64,000 nt of DNA, taken from assembly GCF_004762035.2 (NCBI RefSeq), contig NZ_SIJK02000022.1:1-64000 (forward strand). The letters run 5' to 3'. Shown here in pieces: positions 32,380 to 57,955 of this stretch (position 1 is its first letter; each line of letters opens with the position of its first letter). Under the pieces are notes generated by a model. It was not told the DNA's origin, searched no databases, and saw nothing but the letters and a program-made list of their open reading frames with translations. The DNA comes from Candidatus Chloroploca mongolica. GTDB taxonomy: Bacteria > Chloroflexota > Chloroflexia > Chloroflexales > Chloroflexaceae. The translations under genes were made by a program, and so were the position numbers.

Positions 32380-34455
32380 CTACTCTGCGTCGAGAGGGGT
32401 TTCCTCTTTGAGCACGTAGTAGATGCGTTTGCCACGGCCGCTCCGCTCAAGGATGCCATTGTTGATGGCTTGTTTGACCATGGTTCGGAGTTGCTCATTG
32501 GTGCGTGCAAGGTTGTGTTCTTTGCGCCAGCCACGTAGTGTATCGAAGATCTGCTGGAATGAGGTCGGCTTGGCAAAACTCGCCATCATGTGCCGAAATA
32601 CGTCCCACTCTTCATCGGTAAACAAGATTGGCTCAACCACTTCTTGTTCACCCGCAGGGGCTTCTTCCGTCTCGTCAACGGTCTGAACAACCTCCGTGGA
32701 TGCAGGCTCTCCACCCTCGGGTGCTGCTTCGGCGTGGGTCTCGGCGACCGCCTCGGGGTGGGTCTCGGCGACCGCCTCGGGGTGGGTCTCGGCGACCGCC
32801 TCGGGGTGGGTCTCGGCGACCGCCTCCGCATCGTGTGCATCCTCAGCGTGCCCCTCGGTGAGTTCAGACACGGGCGCGGCCTCGCTCGGGTGAACCTCCT
32901 CAAGATCAGTTGACTGGCGGGCCTGATCCTCAGCGGCAACCGCGTGGGCCACAGCTTCCCAGGCCTCTTCGTGAGGAACCTCTGGTTCAGACGCCATCGC
33001 CTCCCAGTCAACCTCAGCGGGGGCGAGCAGTTGGGCGGCAAGCGCACTGGCTGCTGCTTCCCAGGCTGCATCATCAGAACCATCGCTGTCGAGCGCCAGA
33101 AGATCTGGTGACTCAGCGGCCAGGAGTGGTTCAGCGGAGTGAAGTTCGCGCAGATCAGCAGCCATCAACTCATCGGGGGCGTGCTCTTCAAAGAAAGCAA
33201 CGACTTCAGCCGACTCTTCCAGGTGATCGAGCGCGAGCAGTTCATCATCACCGACAGAGGTTGCATCGTCAGGATCATCAAAATTGAGCGCACTCTCAGC
33301 GGCCAGCAGTGGATTGACACCCTCGGTTGAGGGATGGGCCGCATTCTGCGGACGGCGGGAACGGCGACGACGGCGGCGGCTACTTGATGCTGGTGGCTCG
33401 GGCGCAGGTGGCTCGATCAGAAGTGGTTCGCTGCGACCATTCAAGCTTACTGAAGGATCAATGACCGGCTCAAGCGGTAATTCATCGGTCAGCGCAGCGG
33501 CAAACTGCGAGAGTTTGTAGGGGTCTTCGCCGGGCAGAAAGACTTCATTGACCGTCCCACTCGTAAAGATCTGCACCTTGCCACGCTTTTCCGCATCAAC
33601 GACAAAGTCCTTAAACTTGGCAAACGGGCGATTATTCAGGTCGCGATAGCGGCTCTCTTTGAAATCACCGCCCATCAACTCTTTCATCACCAGTTTGATC
33701 GAGCCAAGGGTCGAGACATAGCCACGCTTGCGGACGAGATGGATTGCTTCAACCAGTACGGCATAGATATCAACCTCAGCTACAACCGGTACTGGTGATG
33801 GCGGTACCGGGGTTGCCACTGCCACTGGTTCGGGAACCACCGGTTCACGGCTTCGCTCACGGGGCGCAGGCTCGAAGGTGGCGGCATCAAGACCACGGTT
33901 GATCTCAGTCGCCCGATTGGCAATCGCCGTTGCCATCACTGAACCACCGGTCTGACGGCCTACCAGTTGCTCATAAAAGACAAACTCATCGGCACTCTGC
34001 GCGAGGTGCGTGCTGGCCGCACCGCCAATGCCAATGATATAGACCTCTTTGCCTTGCTGGCGAATACTATTGACCAGAGGGATAAAATCACGATCCCCCG
34101 TTACAAGGACAAACTTACTGATATTCGTATTAACAAACAGGGTCTTCATAGCATCGATACAAAGATTCATATCAACGCTATTTTTAATTGCCCGCCCTGT
34201 GCGGCCCATATCCTTATCGTAATAGTAGGTAGCCACATAGATAGGCTCTATCGCATTGGCATAGAGCGCACTAGTGACCCGTGGATAGCGATACCAATCG
34301 GCGTATGCCCGTGAAATAACCACACGTCCGAGGTCGCTACAACGATCCATTATCGCTTCGAAATTAGGATTGGCATTCAGCTTATCACGGACACTGACAT
34401 AGACGTTTTCGAAGTCGATAAAGACCGCGACATCAGGTCGCCTCTGCTCATACAT
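32380..34455 (-). CDS. NYN-domain ribonuclease-like protein with LOTUS/OST-HTH domain
   Basis: A 691-aa protein. Residues 8-170 are a NYN (PIN-like) domain with acidic residues D14, D95, D101, D121 and D123 (VFIDFEN, VDMNLCIDAM, VTGDRDF) complete. Residues 225-320 resemble an OST-HTH/LOTUS RNA-binding domain. A long acidic, low-complexity stretch (about 330-600) includes a tandem HPEAVAET repeat. The last ~80 residues are a further winged-helix-like domain (LFTDEEWDVFRHMM...). Together this suggests an RNA-processing enzyme or RNA-binding regulator. Confidence 0.85.
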   Translation of the reverse strand: MYEQRRPDVAVFIDFENVYVSVRDKLNANPNFEAIMDRCSDLGRVVISRAYADWYRYPRVTSALYANAIEPIYVATYYYDKDMGRTGRAIKNSVDMNLCIDAMKTLFVNTNISKFVLVTGDRDFIPLVNSIRQQGKEVYIIGIGGAASTHLAQSADEFVFYEQLVGRQTGGSVMATAIANRATEINRGLDAATFEPAPRERSREPVVPEPVAVATPVPPSPVPVVAEVDIYAVLVEAIHLVRKRGYVSTLGSIKLVMKELMGGDFKESRYRDLNNRPFAKFKDFVVDAEKRGKVQIFTSGTVNEVFLPGEDPYKLSQFAAALTDELPLEPVIDPSVSLNGRSEPLLIEPPAPEPPASSSRRRRRRSRRPQNAAHPSTEGVNPLLAAESALNFDDPDDATSVGDDELLALDHLEESAEVVAFFEEHAPDELMAADLRELHSAEPLLAAESPDLLALDSDGSDDAAWEAAASALAAQLLAPAEVDWEAMASEPEVPHEEAWEAVAHAVAAEDQARQSTDLEEVHPSEAAPVSELTEGHAEDAHDAEAVAETHPEAVAETHPEAVAETHPEAVAETHAEAAPEGGEPASTEVVQTVDETEEAPAGEQEVVEPILFTDEEWDVFRHMMASFAKPTSFQQIFDTLRGWRKEHNLARTNEQLRTMVKQAINNGILERSGRGKRIYYVLKEETPLDAE
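32732..32826. repeat. 24-bp tandem repeat inside the NYN gene
   Basis: About four copies of a 24-base unit encode repeated HPEAVAET octapeptides in the acidic linker. The copies are almost identical, so unit number may vary between strains. Confidence 0.8.
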
Positions 34456-46875: not shown

Positions 46876-47000
46876 CAATACGTTGCAAATAAGGCGGTTC
46901 TTTTGACGCAAAGGCGCAAAGGCGCAAAGGTTTTCGTGTAGGTGAGCGAACCCTTCGCGCCTTCGCGTGAGCTTATGTGCAAGGTGTTGGGTTTAACGCA
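46876..47000. mobile_element. MITE-like palindromic element, CAAATAAG type
   Basis: Ends CCAATACGTTGCAAATAAG and CTTATGTGCAAGGTGTTGG are imperfect inverted repeats. Inside are GACGCAAAGGCGCAAAGG and CCTTCGCGCCTTCGCGTGA. Closely similar in layout and sequence to 57847-57955. Confidence 0.7.
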
Positions 47001-48435: not shown

Positions 48436-51300
48436 ATGCTACAGCTAACCCTTGATCACCCCCATACGCCGCTGGCGTGTGCCCGCATCTTAACGATCAG
48501 TGCGCGTGCTCCGCAACGTGGGCTTGCGCTGGCGCAAAGGGCCTGGCACGCTGCGGCTGGTGGTACACCCGAAGCGCAGGCCCACGCGGCGATGACGCTT
48601 GGGATTGCGCTGTTGCGCTCTGATCAGATCCACCAGGCGTTGGCGATGCTTGAGGTCGCCCGAGAAGGCTGTGCAACGCTCGGTTTATCTATTGCTGGAC
48701 TCTATGTCCAGCGCGCACGGATTCAGGCGTTGCGGATGCTTGAGCAGATCGCCGATCCGCTGGCCGCTGTGCGTGAACTGGCTCAGGCGTTTGCAGCGGT
48801 TGGTCTGCATGACGAAGTGCTCCGCACGCGCATGGATGAGGTTGCGCTGCTGAATCTGCGCGGGCATCAGTCAGAGGCCCTGGCCCTCGCTGAGGAGCTC
48901 CAGCCTACCCTGGAGGACCTAGGCACCCTGGCTGATCATGCACGTCTTGCGCGCTCGTGTGGGATCGCTCTCTCAAATATCAGTCGGCTCGATGACGCTC
49001 TTGATGCCTTTGCGCGGGCACGGGCCTGGTTTGCGGCGTTCGGGTACGGGTTTGATGTGGCGATTACGCGTGCTGAGGCGACGATGATTGCGTTGCGTCG
49101 TGAAGATATGGCCGGATGCATTGATGAGTTGTATGCATTGACCAGAATCTTTGCCCGCTACGGCAGTGAGCAGAATATCGGGTATTGCGAAAAGCGGATT
49201 GGCATCGCGGCCAATGGTCTGGGCCGTTATGATGAGGGCATTGCCGCTTTCAGTCAGGCGCGCGTCCGTTTTCAGGCCCTTGGACGGGCGTCGCATGTTG
49301 CGGAATGCGACCTGAATCTTGGCAATAGTGCCTATTACAGTGGCCTCTTCGAGCTTGCCCTCGCCTCGTATCGGCGTGCCGAAGCAAGCTTCGAACACCT
49401 TGGTTTGCGGCCCCTCGCGATCTTGAGTAGACGCAATCAGGCCCTGGCCCTGCGGCTGCTGCAACGTCCGCACGAGAGCCTGGCGTTGCTTGAGCCAGTG
49501 GCCGAGGAATTACAGCAATTGGGCAATCGGCTTGAGTATGGCGAGGTGTTGCAAGCGCAAGCCTATGCCCTTGATGATCTGGGGGCGGGCGAGGCGGCGC
49601 TGGAACGGTTTCGGCAAGCTGAAACGATCGTGCGCCGCGAAGGCAATCTGCCTGCTGCTGCCGAGAGTATGATCGAACAGGGCTGGATACAGCTGCGCGC
49701 CGGTGATGCCGCCGTCGCCCGTGAGCTCTTTGAGGCAGCCTTGCCTCACCTTGAGGGTCGGCTGAACCATCGCTGGCGGGCGCTGTATGGGTTTGGGCGT
49801 TGCGTAGAGGTAATGGGCGATCGCACAGCGGCCCTGGGCCACTATCGCGCCGCCGTGCGCCTTATTGCCGACCTGCGGCGGCGTCTGGCGAGCGAGCACG
49901 CATCGAGCGGCATCTTTCAGATGGCAATGGATCTCTTCAACGCTGCACTGCGCCTTGCCCAGGAGCTCGATGATCCACAGGCCGTGCTTGAACTGGCCGA
50001 CTCGCAGCGGGCGCTGGCCTTGCGTCGCCAGATGAACAGTTCGCAGGTATGGGTGCCGCAGGAGCTTCAGGGTGAACTGGTGAGCAATAGTGCCACGCTT
50101 CGTGAGGCACTTCATCAGAAGATGACCGGAGCCGCGCTTGATGCAGCATTGGATGGCTATGTTGACCTCTTGTTGCGGGCACGTCATCAGGTTCCCCTGC
50201 CCCAACCACCCGAAGTGACGCCGGATCTTGAGGAATTACGTGCAGCGTGGTCGGTGGCGTATCCGGAAGGATGGATGGCGCTCTTTTACCTTGAGGTTGC
50301 AAGTGGCCTGCTTGCCGTGGTTGTGACACTTGATCGGCTCGCACTCTACCCGATTGCTGATGACCAGACCCTCCGGCAGGCGCTCCAACGGGCCACGCAA
50401 CCAGCGCGCCGCATGATGACGTATGGAGGTCTTGGCGATCCTGCGACATGCTGGGCTACCCTGGAGACGTTGGGTGAGCGGTTGATTCCTCGCGAGGTCT
50501 GGAGCGTGCTGGAACCAGCGCAACGCCTGCTGATCGTCCCAGCCGGGATGCTCCACGCGATCCCCTGGGCCACCTTGCGCATGGAGGGACGCTGGCTGGT
50601 CGAATATGCGACGATCCAGATCTTGCCAGCTCTTGGCACCTGGTCAACGCTCTATCGACGGCAGGCCGCGCACCGTGCTGGCTTGCTGGTAGGCGTGAGT
50701 GAGTTTGGCGAGCGTGCCAAAGCCTTGCCGGGAGTGGGGCTGACGCTCGATCTGGTGGCCGAGCGCTGGCAAGGCCCGACCGAGCGCTGGGAGAATGAGG
50801 CGGCTACCCGCGAACACCTGTTGCGTGCCGCCGCCGAGGGTACGTTGCGACAGTTTGGCCTGATCCACTTTGCCATGCACGGACAGGTTTATGCGAGCAA
50901 AGGCTTGCTAGCGCATCTCAAGTTATGGGACGCCGATTTGCAAGCTGACGAAGCGATGCGGCTGCAACTGGATGGAGCGCTGGTGGTGCTTTCGGCGTGT
51001 GAAACCATGGTGAGCGAAGTCTTGCCTGGCGAAGAAGTCTTGAACCTGGGACGCGCCTTTCTGGCGAGCGGCGCACGCGACGTCATCGCGAGTCTCTGGC
51101 AGCTCTATGATCGAGCCTTGCCCGAGATGTTACCGCCGCTCTACGACCGCCTCAGCCAGGGTACCGATGCACCGACAGCCCTGGCGGCGAGTCAGCGTAC
51201 CCTGATCCAACGTGCCCGTACCATTGCCAGCGATGATCCTGATGCCATCCTCGTTTCACCCCTTGTCTGGGGGAGCCTGACCGCCATGGGCGGAGGGTAG
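48436..51300 (+). CDS. CHAT-domain protease-like protein with TPR array
   Basis: A 954-aa soluble protein. Residues 40-520 are tetratricopeptide-like repeats. The C-terminal ~330 residues form a CHAT domain, a caspase-fold peptidase domain, with the catalytic pair H815 (FAMHG) and C855 (LSACET) and the GEEVLNLGRAFLASGARDVIASLW block. CHAT-TPR proteins are common in multicellular and filamentous bacteria; one type (TPR-CHAT) is the Cas-linked Craspase, others partner toxic effectors. Substrates here are unknown. It follows the exchanger gene closely but has no obvious functional tie. Confidence 0.92.
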   Translation: MLQLTLDHPHTPLACARILTISARAPQRGLALAQRAWHAAAGGTPEAQAHAAMTLGIALLRSDQIHQALAMLEVAREGCATLGLSIAGLYVQRARIQALRMLEQIADPLAAVRELAQAFAAVGLHDEVLRTRMDEVALLNLRGHQSEALALAEELQPTLEDLGTLADHARLARSCGIALSNISRLDDALDAFARARAWFAAFGYGFDVAITRAEATMIALRREDMAGCIDELYALTRIFARYGSEQNIGYCEKRIGIAANGLGRYDEGIAAFSQARVRFQALGRASHVAECDLNLGNSAYYSGLFELALASYRRAEASFEHLGLRPLAILSRRNQALALRLLQRPHESLALLEPVAEELQQLGNRLEYGEVLQAQAYALDDLGAGEAALERFRQAETIVRREGNLPAAAESMIEQGWIQLRAGDAAVARELFEAALPHLEGRLNHRWRALYGFGRCVEVMGDRTAALGHYRAAVRLIADLRRRLASEHASSGIFQMAMDLFNAALRLAQELDDPQAVLELADSQRALALRRQMNSSQVWVPQELQGELVSNSATLREALHQKMTGAALDAALDGYVDLLLRARHQVPLPQPPEVTPDLEELRAAWSVAYPEGWMALFYLEVASGLLAVVVTLDRLALYPIADDQTLRQALQRATQPARRMMTYGGLGDPATCWATLETLGERLIPREVWSVLEPAQRLLIVPAGMLHAIPWATLRMEGRWLVEYATIQILPALGTWSTLYRRQAAHRAGLLVGVSEFGERAKALPGVGLTLDLVAERWQGPTERWENEAATREHLLRAAAEGTLRQFGLIHFAMHGQVYASKGLLAHLKLWDADLQADEAMRLQLDGALVVLSACETMVSEVLPGEEVLNLGRAFLASGARDVIASLWQLYDRALPEMLPPLYDRLSQGTDAPTALAASQRTLIQRARTIASDDPDAILVSPLVWGSLTAMGGG

Positions 51301-55227: not shown

Positions 55228-55484
55228 ACGTGAGAAGCAAAGTATGGTTGCAAGCATAAAACAACCGTTGTCGTCACAAAACCACCAGAAAGGAGGCTCC
55301 TGGTCGTACCGTCTTTATCCCTTTGCGGTACAGGCCTGAAAGTAAAACCTGAAGCAAAAAGAGCCTTAAACCAGAAGCCGAGTTGCCCACCTGATGAAAC
55401 AAAATGATGGGGCGTGCGGCAAGATGGCTGGCGAAGGTGAAGAGTTGAAGAGAAGCAAGAGATTAATTGTGGAGTTAAAAACCT

Positions 55485-57845
55485 ATGAGTCTCCCTACCG
55501 AAGTTCGTAGTGGTATGCGCTGGATGCGTGCGGATTTGCATATTCATACTCCAGCATCAGAGGATTATGTAGAACCTGAAGTTACGTATCTCGATATTCT
55601 GCAGGAAGCTGAGCGCCGCGAATTAGAGATTATTGCGTTCACGGATCACAATACTGTCCATGGGTACGAGCAATTTCAGCGTGAGCTTGATTTTTTAGGT
55701 GCCCTTGAGACAGCCGGTCGCTTGACCGCCGAGGAGCAAGTGCGGCTCGATGAATATCGCCGTTTGCTCCAAAAGATCACCGTGTTGCCGGGCTTCGAGT
55801 TTACGTCCCACTTTGGGGCGCATGTGCTGGGCATCTTTCCCCCGAATCGCCCGATTAGTCTGATCGAGACGACGCTTTTGCAACTCGGTGTTCCGGCTGA
55901 ACATCTCAAGGGTGGCGTCTGTGGCATTTCGAATACGCGCCATGTGACCGATGCCTACGAGATTATTGCGCGGGCAGGCGGGATTGTCATTGCCCCACAT
56001 ATCAATGGGCCCAATGGCGTGGTGAATGAGACGCTGCGGATGGGCACGAGTGGGCAGTCGCGGATTGCGGTCTCGCAGAGTCTGCATTTGCATGCTCTCG
56101 AGTTTGTTAATTTTTATACTGATCACGAGAAGTTCACGTCGCCGGGCTTTTATAATGGCAAAACAGAACACTACGACCGGCGTATGTTTTGCATTCAGGG
56201 GAGCGATGCCCACCGCCTGCGCCGTTTGCCCCAGAGTGATGGGCAGGTGGTGCATAAACACGGCATTGGCGACCGCTATATCGAGTTGCTCTTGCCCAAC
56301 AATAGCTTTGAGGCGCTGCGTAACCTCTTTGCGAGCCAGGAGTTTGATCGCGTGCGCGTGCCCAAGCGTGACCAGAAGCAATGGGCGGTTGATGCGGTGC
56401 GCTTTGGTGGTTCCACCGAACGCCAGGTGTTGCGGGCTGTCGGTGATGATCCTTCGACGGTAGCATTGCTCTGGACTGATGTGGCTGCCCTGGCGAATGC
56501 CGGTGGCGGCGTGCTTGTGCTTGGCTGCGAGCCTGGAGGCAAGGTGCTTGGCGTGGCTCGCCCCGATTATGTGAGCGAGATGCTTCGCAAGAGCGTCGCG
56601 GAACAGGTCATACCACAGCCTTATCTCTCGTTTGAGTTGATGAGTTACGAGGGCCAGGATGTTATGCGCGTCGAGGTGAAGGCGAGCGAGCCTCCTCCCT
56701 ATGTCGGGCTCAATGGCACGATCTATGTGCGTCGTGATGGTGAGACGACGATTGCCGATCGCAGTGAGATTATTCAACTCTGCCGGCGTGCGCTCGCTGA
56801 AGGCGCTTCGTCCCCCCTCGATAATGGGCAGGATCTCGATCTGCCCCGCTCGGGCGTCGAGATTGTGACGTGCCAGAAACGTGGCGGTGTCTGGCTCTAT
56901 GAGGTGCGTGATTTGCGCACCACTGCCGGGGTGACCCGCGACCGCGCTCAGGGCCTCTGGGCTTATGCGATCAGTCGCCACGAAGATCTGCGCGATGGTC
57001 GCGTTGACCTGCAGAGCCAGGTGCGCTGGCGGGGGCGGCTTGGGCTCTGGCGGGCGTATCGTCAGGGCAGCCGTACCAAGTATGATCTGGTGCATCGCGA
57101 TGCCAATGGCGTGATTGACCATGTCTTCTTTGGGGTGAGCGATTGGGGCCTCAGTGATGGCTGGATGGCGTTGCTTTCGGAACGTACCGGTGAGCCGATA
57201 GAGCAAGAGACGCAGGCGTTTGATCCGGCTGATGATGTCCCACAACAACTTGTGGTGGGCGATGAACTCCTCTTCACTGATAGCGCCGCACTCTTTGAGC
57301 CCGATATCTGGGCCGAACGCCGTGTCCGCTGGAAGGGTCGCGGCGGGCTGGCCGGCATTCATCGCGATGCCTATGGGCAGCCGAGTTTTGACCTGATGAT
57401 GAAGGATAAGGACGGCACCGGTCAGCAGAGTTATCCTGGTGTGTCGCTTGAGAAGCTGACTGATGCATGGCTCGGTCTGATTCGCATTGCTCGCCCGCGC
57501 ACTGGTATTGAGGTCATCAGTGCGACCCGCAGCGAAGATGGTGAGTGGCAGTATGTCTTTCGCAATCTGCGCACTGGCGATGTCAGTGGGGTGCCCTGGC
57601 GCCTGCAGGATATTGAACCCGGGACGGTGCGGGAGTATGCCGCACGAATGTATCAGCAGGATCTGCCCCTCGATGAAGAGAAGATCCGCTGGTGGGGCAA
57701 TCTTGGCTACCTCCGCCCGATGCGTAGCCAGGTCGATCTCGTCTTTGTCGATGAACAGGGCGAGGTGCATTTTTACTATGCCGCCCGACGTGAAGAGTTG
57801 ACTGGCGAGTGGCGTGAGTTGCTCGAGTTGTATGGCGAGATGTGA
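55485..57845 (+). CDS. PHP-domain phosphoesterase fused to Schlafen-type AlbA_2 domain and C-terminal repeats
   Basis: A 786-aa protein. Residues 15-300 are a PHP domain: D17-L-H19-I-H21, TDHN (D54, H55), GFEFTSH, APHINGP and GSDAHRL supply the metal ligands. Residues 310-420 resemble an AlbA_2 (Schlafen) domain (DVAALANAGGGVLVLGCEPGGKVLGV, RRDGETTIAD). From 455 to the end there are two to three divergent copies of a beta-rich module (GVEIVTC...LYEVRDLRT; GIEVISA...YVFRNLRT). No membrane segment. This looks like a nucleic-acid-directed enzyme; function unknown. A long antisense frame on the other strand is an artefact. Confidence 0.85.
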   Translation: MSLPTEVRSGMRWMRADLHIHTPASEDYVEPEVTYLDILQEAERRELEIIAFTDHNTVHGYEQFQRELDFLGALETAGRLTAEEQVRLDEYRRLLQKITVLPGFEFTSHFGAHVLGIFPPNRPISLIETTLLQLGVPAEHLKGGVCGISNTRHVTDAYEIIARAGGIVIAPHINGPNGVVNETLRMGTSGQSRIAVSQSLHLHALEFVNFYTDHEKFTSPGFYNGKTEHYDRRMFCIQGSDAHRLRRLPQSDGQVVHKHGIGDRYIELLLPNNSFEALRNLFASQEFDRVRVPKRDQKQWAVDAVRFGGSTERQVLRAVGDDPSTVALLWTDVAALANAGGGVLVLGCEPGGKVLGVARPDYVSEMLRKSVAEQVIPQPYLSFELMSYEGQDVMRVEVKASEPPPYVGLNGTIYVRRDGETTIADRSEIIQLCRRALAEGASSPLDNGQDLDLPRSGVEIVTCQKRGGVWLYEVRDLRTTAGVTRDRAQGLWAYAISRHEDLRDGRVDLQSQVRWRGRLGLWRAYRQGSRTKYDLVHRDANGVIDHVFFGVSDWGLSDGWMALLSERTGEPIEQETQAFDPADDVPQQLVVGDELLFTDSAALFEPDIWAERRVRWKGRGGLAGIHRDAYGQPSFDLMMKDKDGTGQQSYPGVSLEKLTDAWLGLIRIARPRTGIEVISATRSEDGEWQYVFRNLRTGDVSGVPWRLQDIEPGTVREYAARMYQQDLPLDEEKIRWWGNLGYLRPMRSQVDLVFVDEQGEVHFYYAARREELTGEWRELLELYGEM

Positions 57846-57846
57846 G

Positions 57847-57955
57847 CGCAATACCTGGCAAATAAGGCGATTGTTTTGACGCAAAGGCGCAAAGTTTTTC
57901 GCGTACGTGAGCGAACCCTTCGCGCCTTCGCGTGAGCTTATTTGCAAAGTATTGG
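57847..57955. mobile_element. MITE-like palindromic element, CAAATAAG type
   Basis: Outer arms CAATACCTGGCAAATAAG (57849-57866) and CTTATTTGCAAAGTATTG (57937-57954) pair with two mismatches. Inner arms GACGCAAAGGCGC and GCGCCTTCGCGTGA also pair loosely. It starts immediately after the PHP gene stop. Confidence 0.75.

Follow-up and report, generated by a model that had tools for sequence, protein, structure and literature searches.

The gene at positions 55,485-57,845 of the forward strand of our window, a stretch of 64,000 nucleotides from Candidatus Chloroploca mongolica, encodes a 786-aa protein in which a PHP domain is followed by an AlbA_2 domain and a tail arranged as units A-B, B and A-B. 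We tentatively favor the view that it is a housekeeping enzyme of Chloroflexota for the processing of nucleic-acid ends, in which the PHP phosphoesterase would act on RNA ends and a non-catalytic AlbA_2 domain and the tail would serve as guides. A fusion of PHP and AlbA_2 with repeated C-terminal modules had been proposed in a sequence-only reading of the window, and the open reading frame list, the Pfam searches and the repeat analysis confirmed the frame, the domains and the repeats.

Domains of the protein and their relatives

The PHP domain extends over residues 12-290 (55,518-56,354, forward strand), as supported by NCBIfam, Pfam, a fold match and the invariance of its ligands. Nine positions (H19, H21, D27, H55, E105, H113, H172, D241 and H243), which we take from the known order of PHP motifs to be the metal ligands, were identical in all 41 rows of an alignment of members of the order, in line with the earlier claim that the ligand set is complete, and were kept in 46-50 of 50 homologues in a diverse set that included other orders and classes. 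The Pfam PHP model matched residues 17-72 with 23.5 bits, just below its cut-off of 26.4, and in homologues it scored 27.0 (L083), 23.1 (L088), 22.2 (L198), 20.6 (L216) and 16.1 bits (L114). The TrlF model of NCBIfam covered residues 10-296 (1.1e-29), followed on the PHP part by Ppl (5e-17) and Spaf_1101 (1.1e-11), all three far under their family cut-offs, and the Ppl model of PADLOC matched the protein at 5e-11. Sequence searches of the PDB gave weak Schlafen and PHP matches. We modeled the whole protein (pLDDT 75.1, pTM 0.42; poor at residues 181-191 and 212-263), and the fold matches of its PHP domain were led by EndoQ, with the highest Z of 12.6, ahead of 3e38 (11.8), TM0559 (11.6), PsfC (10.5) and RNase AM (10.0). 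The accessible text on RNase AM (PMC9410882) reports that mutating D20, E72 and D255/H257 disrupts its activity; by motif order only, D27, E105 and D241/H243 would be their counterparts.

Comparison with known families showed shared parts and different additions. TrlF (NF045780, an AAA-like ATPase family) and the anti-phage Ppl (NF042955) have the same set of PHP motifs as our protein (HxH, S-x-D-[YF] or SHDY-like, DHN, E, H, H and SDAH), but they carry an ATPase part where our protein has AlbA_2 and the tail. Membership in either family was rejected, with 103.8 bits against a cut-off of 350 for TrlF and 61.1 bits against 1000 for Ppl, in both cases over the PHP part only. RNase AM and RNase RNM (NF047791) share the PHP fold (Z 10.0 and 9.6), and unlike RNase AM the window protein carries AlbA_2 and the tail; here too membership was rejected (21.2 bits, cut-off 375). 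A separate RNase-AM-like PHP protein of 294 aa is encoded in the same genome and scores 82 bits, below that cut-off of 375. Endonuclease Q (5zb8 and 7k30), the best fold match of the PHP domain (Z 12.6 and 12.2), is 13-14% identical to it over the aligned part, and the remainder differs. A literature search that covered few subscription papers found no paper on this protein or on the combination of PHP, AlbA_2 and this tail. PHP and AlbA_2 are already known, and their combination with this tail was not found in the literature searched.

The ligand set is not kept everywhere. Genus g21 of the order departs from the rule: each of the ten copies examined (L102, L136-L143 and L148), one from each matched genome of the genus in the order-wide survey, retains no more than two of the nine PHP positions, and these copies keep AlbA_2, as well as the tail wherever the sequence reaches that far. 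Since one genus has lost most of the ligands in ten copies, some of the function may be independent of catalysis. In another outlier, L103, D241 is replaced by N.

The AlbA_2 domain comprises residues 296-441 by fold and 329-422 by Pfam (56,370-56,807, forward strand). Its match to Pfam SLFN_AlbA_2 (PF04326) scored 52.8 bits, with a cut-off of 25.3, and begins at position 20 of the 118 positions of the profile. The closest folds were DIP2311 (3lmm, Z 12.8), a RecG-related N-terminal domain (11.2), SAMD9 (10.6), SLFN11 (9.7) and SLFN13 (9.4), the Schlafen and SAMD9 domains together ranging from 8.3 to 10.6. Given a Pfam score over the cut-off and a best fold match at Z 12.8, residues 310-420 are AlbA_2, as the sequence-only reading had assigned them, and the structural objection that it had itself raised to this assignment therefore falls away. 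When the AlbA_2 part alone was compared with the PDB by sequence, designed repeat proteins ranked at the top and were disregarded.

The same reading had noted that AlbA_2 domains occur in RNA-cleaving Schlafens, and catalysis of that type by this domain was not supported. According to the accessible text of PMC5862951, SLFN13 uses E205, E210 and D248 as catalytic acids, and these are not kept in the family of the window protein. The motif ExxxxE[FY]K, which holds the catalytic glutamates of Schlafens, was missing from the window protein in a motif scan and from all 50 homologues of the PHP-AlbA_2 protein. The column of the second glutamate never holds E in these homologues (it is V, I, A, L, P, F, Q or S), the column of the first holds E in 15 of the 50, and the aspartate column holds E or D in 19. 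The alignment is loose around these columns, and therefore the firm statement is the absence of the motif, on which we rule out Schlafen-type catalysis by this domain. Ten other AlbA_2 loci of the phylum were scanned as well: five of them have the motif, four (L223, L224, L225 and L227) lack it, and L222 is badly cut. We take AlbA_2 to be a binding part of the protein, predicted from these motif data to be non-catalytic.

The tail contains module 1 (units A-B, residues 453-567; 56,841-57,185), a unit B alone (about residues 613-667; 57,321-57,485) and module 3 (units A-B, residues 671-781; 57,495-57,827), all on the forward strand. Profile A3, built from module 1 without the module 3 copy of the window, matched module 1 at 2.8e-44 and module 3 at 3.7e-13. 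Profile-profile comparison by hhalign related the units to each other (B1-B2 1.6e-12, B1-B3 1.5e-10, B2-B3 3.1e-5, A1-A3 1.3e-7 and AB1-AB3 3.1e-12), and unrelated control pairs gave 0.14 (A1-B1), 0.056 (A1-B2), 0.016 (A3-B2) and 0.58 (AlbA-AB1). The modules are thus repeated, as had been noted by eye, and they are without a Pfam match: even with E values of up to 5 allowed, the tail alone gave no Pfam hit. Modeled separately as a whole, the tail was beta-rich, with a pLDDT of 83.5 and a pTM of 0.79; Foldseek found no match for this model in the PDB at E 0.001 or better, and VIA-align gave no Z above 3.9. A missing PDB match is not a demonstration of a new fold.

More than one tail match was found in 52 of 119 three-domain loci and a single match in the other 67. 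The multi-tail loci are all 48 examined in the order, L103 and three loci of family f110 (L198-L200). The three f110 genomes hold two paralogues each, one with three tail matches (L198-L200) and one with a single module (L201-L203).

Outside the PHP-AlbA_2 protein the tail module was seen in one case, in a protein at L144:5789-7318 (forward strand), where it occupies residues 385-492 and is fused to a NYN domain (Pfam 4.6e-32). The L144 genome had no PHP-AlbA_2 match of its own in the class-level searches. When 150 genomes of its class were queried with the NYN-tail protein, only G472 aligned over both parts among the matches listed, best first; the tail module as such was found in 64 of 100 genomes of the class of G472, one of them a weak match in a short frame. 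NYN proteins such as MARF1 are endoribonucleases, according to the accessible text of PMC6294520. LOTUS domains noted by eye in the L144 protein were dropped, as Pfam finds none. Several short open reading frames with only a tail were not counted as other proteins, being genes interrupted by a stop codon or by the end of a contig (G506, G524, G527 and G555:C73) or frames that run off the end of the fetched contig (G138, G522, G555:C243 and G613). The window itself encodes a 691-aa NYN-domain protein (32,380-34,455, reverse strand; Pfam 2.9e-30), which shares 57% identity with the L144 protein over the NYN part and has similar proteins among relatives.

Genomic setting, distribution and selection

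The protein is 97% identical to proteins of Ca. Chloroploca asiatica and Chloroploca sp. Khr17. By Pfam, its gene is flanked in the window by a divergent methyltransferase gene upstream and a convergent DUF2298 gene downstream, and because of these orientations it is probably transcribed alone. The promoter of its own that the sequence-only reading gave it is putative: the upstream intergenic region (55,265-55,484, forward strand) is 94-95% identical in two congeners, and the nearest promoter-like match in it is weak (9 of 12). Rfam gave no match over the window at the gathering threshold. Elsewhere in the window, at 48,436-51,300 (forward strand), we observed a TPR protein of 954 aa; it carries a CHAT domain at its C terminus (Pfam 1.8e-40) and matches BovA of PADLOC weakly (0.0075).

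A mobile element right after the stop codon had been taken as a feature of the gene. A short non-coding repeat indeed adjoins the stop codon (57,849-57,954), with inverted arms of 18 nt (outer) and 16 nt (inner), 48 matches in the genome and a near-full second copy at 46,876-46,989; a meaningful tie to the gene did not stand. In the congeners L034 and L035 the repeat was not found in the 600 bases 3′ of the gene, and the downstream DNA that they have in common with the window begins immediately at the stop. The simplest view is therefore that the repeat is a recent insertion and probably not part of the gene, and since it is absent beside the gene in these two congeners it seems to have been recently active. 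With a short repeat that has 48 matches in the genome and a site that is empty in two congeners, we rejected the gene as cargo of a mobile element.

The gene is chromosomal and core in the order of this photosynthetic bacterium, and its presence outside the order is patchy. It was found in 40 of 41 genomes of close relatives, including all 31 of good quality. Across the order, counting by hand, 74 of 82 genomes had strong matches (E below 1e-60), three had weak or partial matches and five had none. Strong matches were obtained in 39 of 76 genomes of the rest of the class, and in 17 of 346 (E below 1e-50) in an even sample of other classes. Genome contigs were also scanned with patterns that fit close relatives in particular, and all 40 loci obtained carry Chloroflexota names. 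All three domains lie in one open reading frame in 119 of the 120 loci examined; L116 ends with its contig, and in L217 a frameshift interrupts the PHP part.

In the gene tree Chloroflexus, Roseiflexus, Viridilinea and Chloroploca each form a cluster; rows labeled Oscillochloris are split among several parts of the tree, and the branches of the deepest rows are long and uncertain. The dN/dS values for pairs with two congeners were 0.063 and 0.070, wider pairs being saturated, and show that the gene is under purifying selection. The protein had no match in phages and none in viral contigs, and a PHROGs search gave a single weak helicase match (0.013). Matches were found in 442 plasmid records, none over 80% of the query; the best 20 of these align with residues 7-299 only and are mostly annotated as Ppl or TrlF, and the tail had no plasmid match.

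Neighboring genes and candidate functions

The commonest neighbors in our survey of homologues were lon and hsp20, not repair genes. Among the single-tail loci with at least 1.5 kb of upstream sequence, which were chosen from the best matches and are not independent, 31 of 64 have lon as the immediate upstream gene in the same orientation, and hsp20 precedes lon in 21 of those 31. By hand count the 31 loci span 21 families, and in single-tail loci -10 to 1058 bases separate the lon stop from the PHP domain. Lon and Hsp20 were identified by Pfam and NCBIfam for representatives and by BLAST for the remainder. Four of ten further loci fetched later also had lon upstream, and none of 49 multi-tail loci did, including those of this order. 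Scanning 120 loci and the window for the CIRCE consensus with up to three mismatches, we found one site, in L100, where hsp20-lon adjacency is not proven. A gene for a CvpA-like membrane protein divergently adjoins the family gene in ten loci (L086, L092, L100, L110-L113, L115, L117 and L120).

The claim that the gene encodes a nucleic-acid-targeting enzyme survives as the likeliest reading, and the PHP and AlbA_2 fusion and the ligands are confirmed; a defensive role and catalysis by AlbA_2 were not supported. In the mechanism we propose, a PHP site with two or three metal ions would cleave a phosphoester bond at a nucleic-acid 5′ end, and the AlbA_2 domain and the tail would hold the substrate or a partner. 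The substrate would most likely be RNA, as with RNase AM, which the accessible text of PMC9410882 describes as a 5′-3′ exoribonuclease, and the work of the enzyme would be RNA turnover or quality control going along with protein quality control. RNA is favored because of the fusion of the tail to a NYN domain and the likeness to RNase AM. Processing of RNA ends as a housekeeping function draws on the invariant ligands, the fold matches to RNase AM, SLFN11, SLFN13 and SAMD9, the NYN fusion, the core distribution, the dN/dS values and the linkage to lon. Several points speak against it and keep it tentative, below an even chance: the highest Z is that of EndoQ, the NYN fusion is a single case, lon is upstream in 0 of 49 multi-tail loci, no CIRCE was found by hsp20-lon, genus g21 has lost most of its PHP ligands, the genome has a separate RNase-AM-like protein, and the gene is patchy beyond the order.

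The EndoQ match pulls towards DNA, and the protein might instead be an enzyme of DNA repair or DNA-end processing, in which AlbA_2 and the tail would direct an EndoQ-like PHP nuclease to its DNA. Its two best PHP matches, both EndoQ, extend over 195-197 residues, PHP domains of DNA polymerases match as well (Z 6.3-8.2), and the AlbA_2 part resembles the RecG-related domain. We nevertheless consider this function unlikely, as the Z gaps of 1-3 between PHP families are small, the tail is common to a NYN, RNase-type protein, and repair genes are not among the commonest neighbors. Somewhat less probable still is a phosphodiesterase or phosphatase of small nucleotides (such as 3′,5′-bisphosphates or cyclic phosphates) regulated through AlbA_2 and the tail, for which the large additions of nucleic-acid type would be superfluous; the AMP-bound PHP structure 2yb1 matches at Z 7.0, and on the PHP part NCBIfam gives weak matches to 3′,5′-nucleoside bisphosphate phosphatase (4.9e-4) and cyclic-phosphate dihydrolase (0.0046), but their scores (19.4 of 400 and 16.3 of 500 bits) are far below the family cut-offs.

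An anti-phage or other defensive role, which had been suggested as possible, is improbable and was set aside as the leading reading, because the gene is core in good-quality relatives, not patchy or mobile in defense islands, its tree follows host lineages, many single-tail relatives have it in a lon and hsp20 context, phages and viral contigs do not match, the listed plasmid matches are confined to the PHP part, and the protein lacks the ATPase part present in TrlF and Ppl, all of which weigh against the likeness of its PHP part to TrlF and Ppl and the PADLOC matches of the adjoining kinase gene (PD-T4-6, 1.9e-40) and methyltransferase gene (mad2, 9.4e-14). We judge the latter two matches to be generic. 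A TrlF- or Ppl-like PHP match need not, then, signal phage defense.

Returning to the processing of RNA ends, a more far-reaching version of this function is possible though rather doubtful: the protein might represent a new class of bacterial enzyme for RNA 5′-end processing or surveillance, joining a TrlF-type PHP nuclease to a non-catalytic RNA clamp of Schlafen fold and a new RNA-recognition module, ancestrally placed behind Hsp20 and Lon so that RNA and protein quality control would be switched on jointly. For the Chloroflexus-Roseiflexus order, the finding means a strongly conserved core gene with an intact predicted active site. The protein defines a subfamily of PHP proteins whose C-terminal module had no Pfam family or clear PDB fold in the searches made, and a testable pathway is suggested by the lon and hsp20 genes that adjoin it in other lineages.
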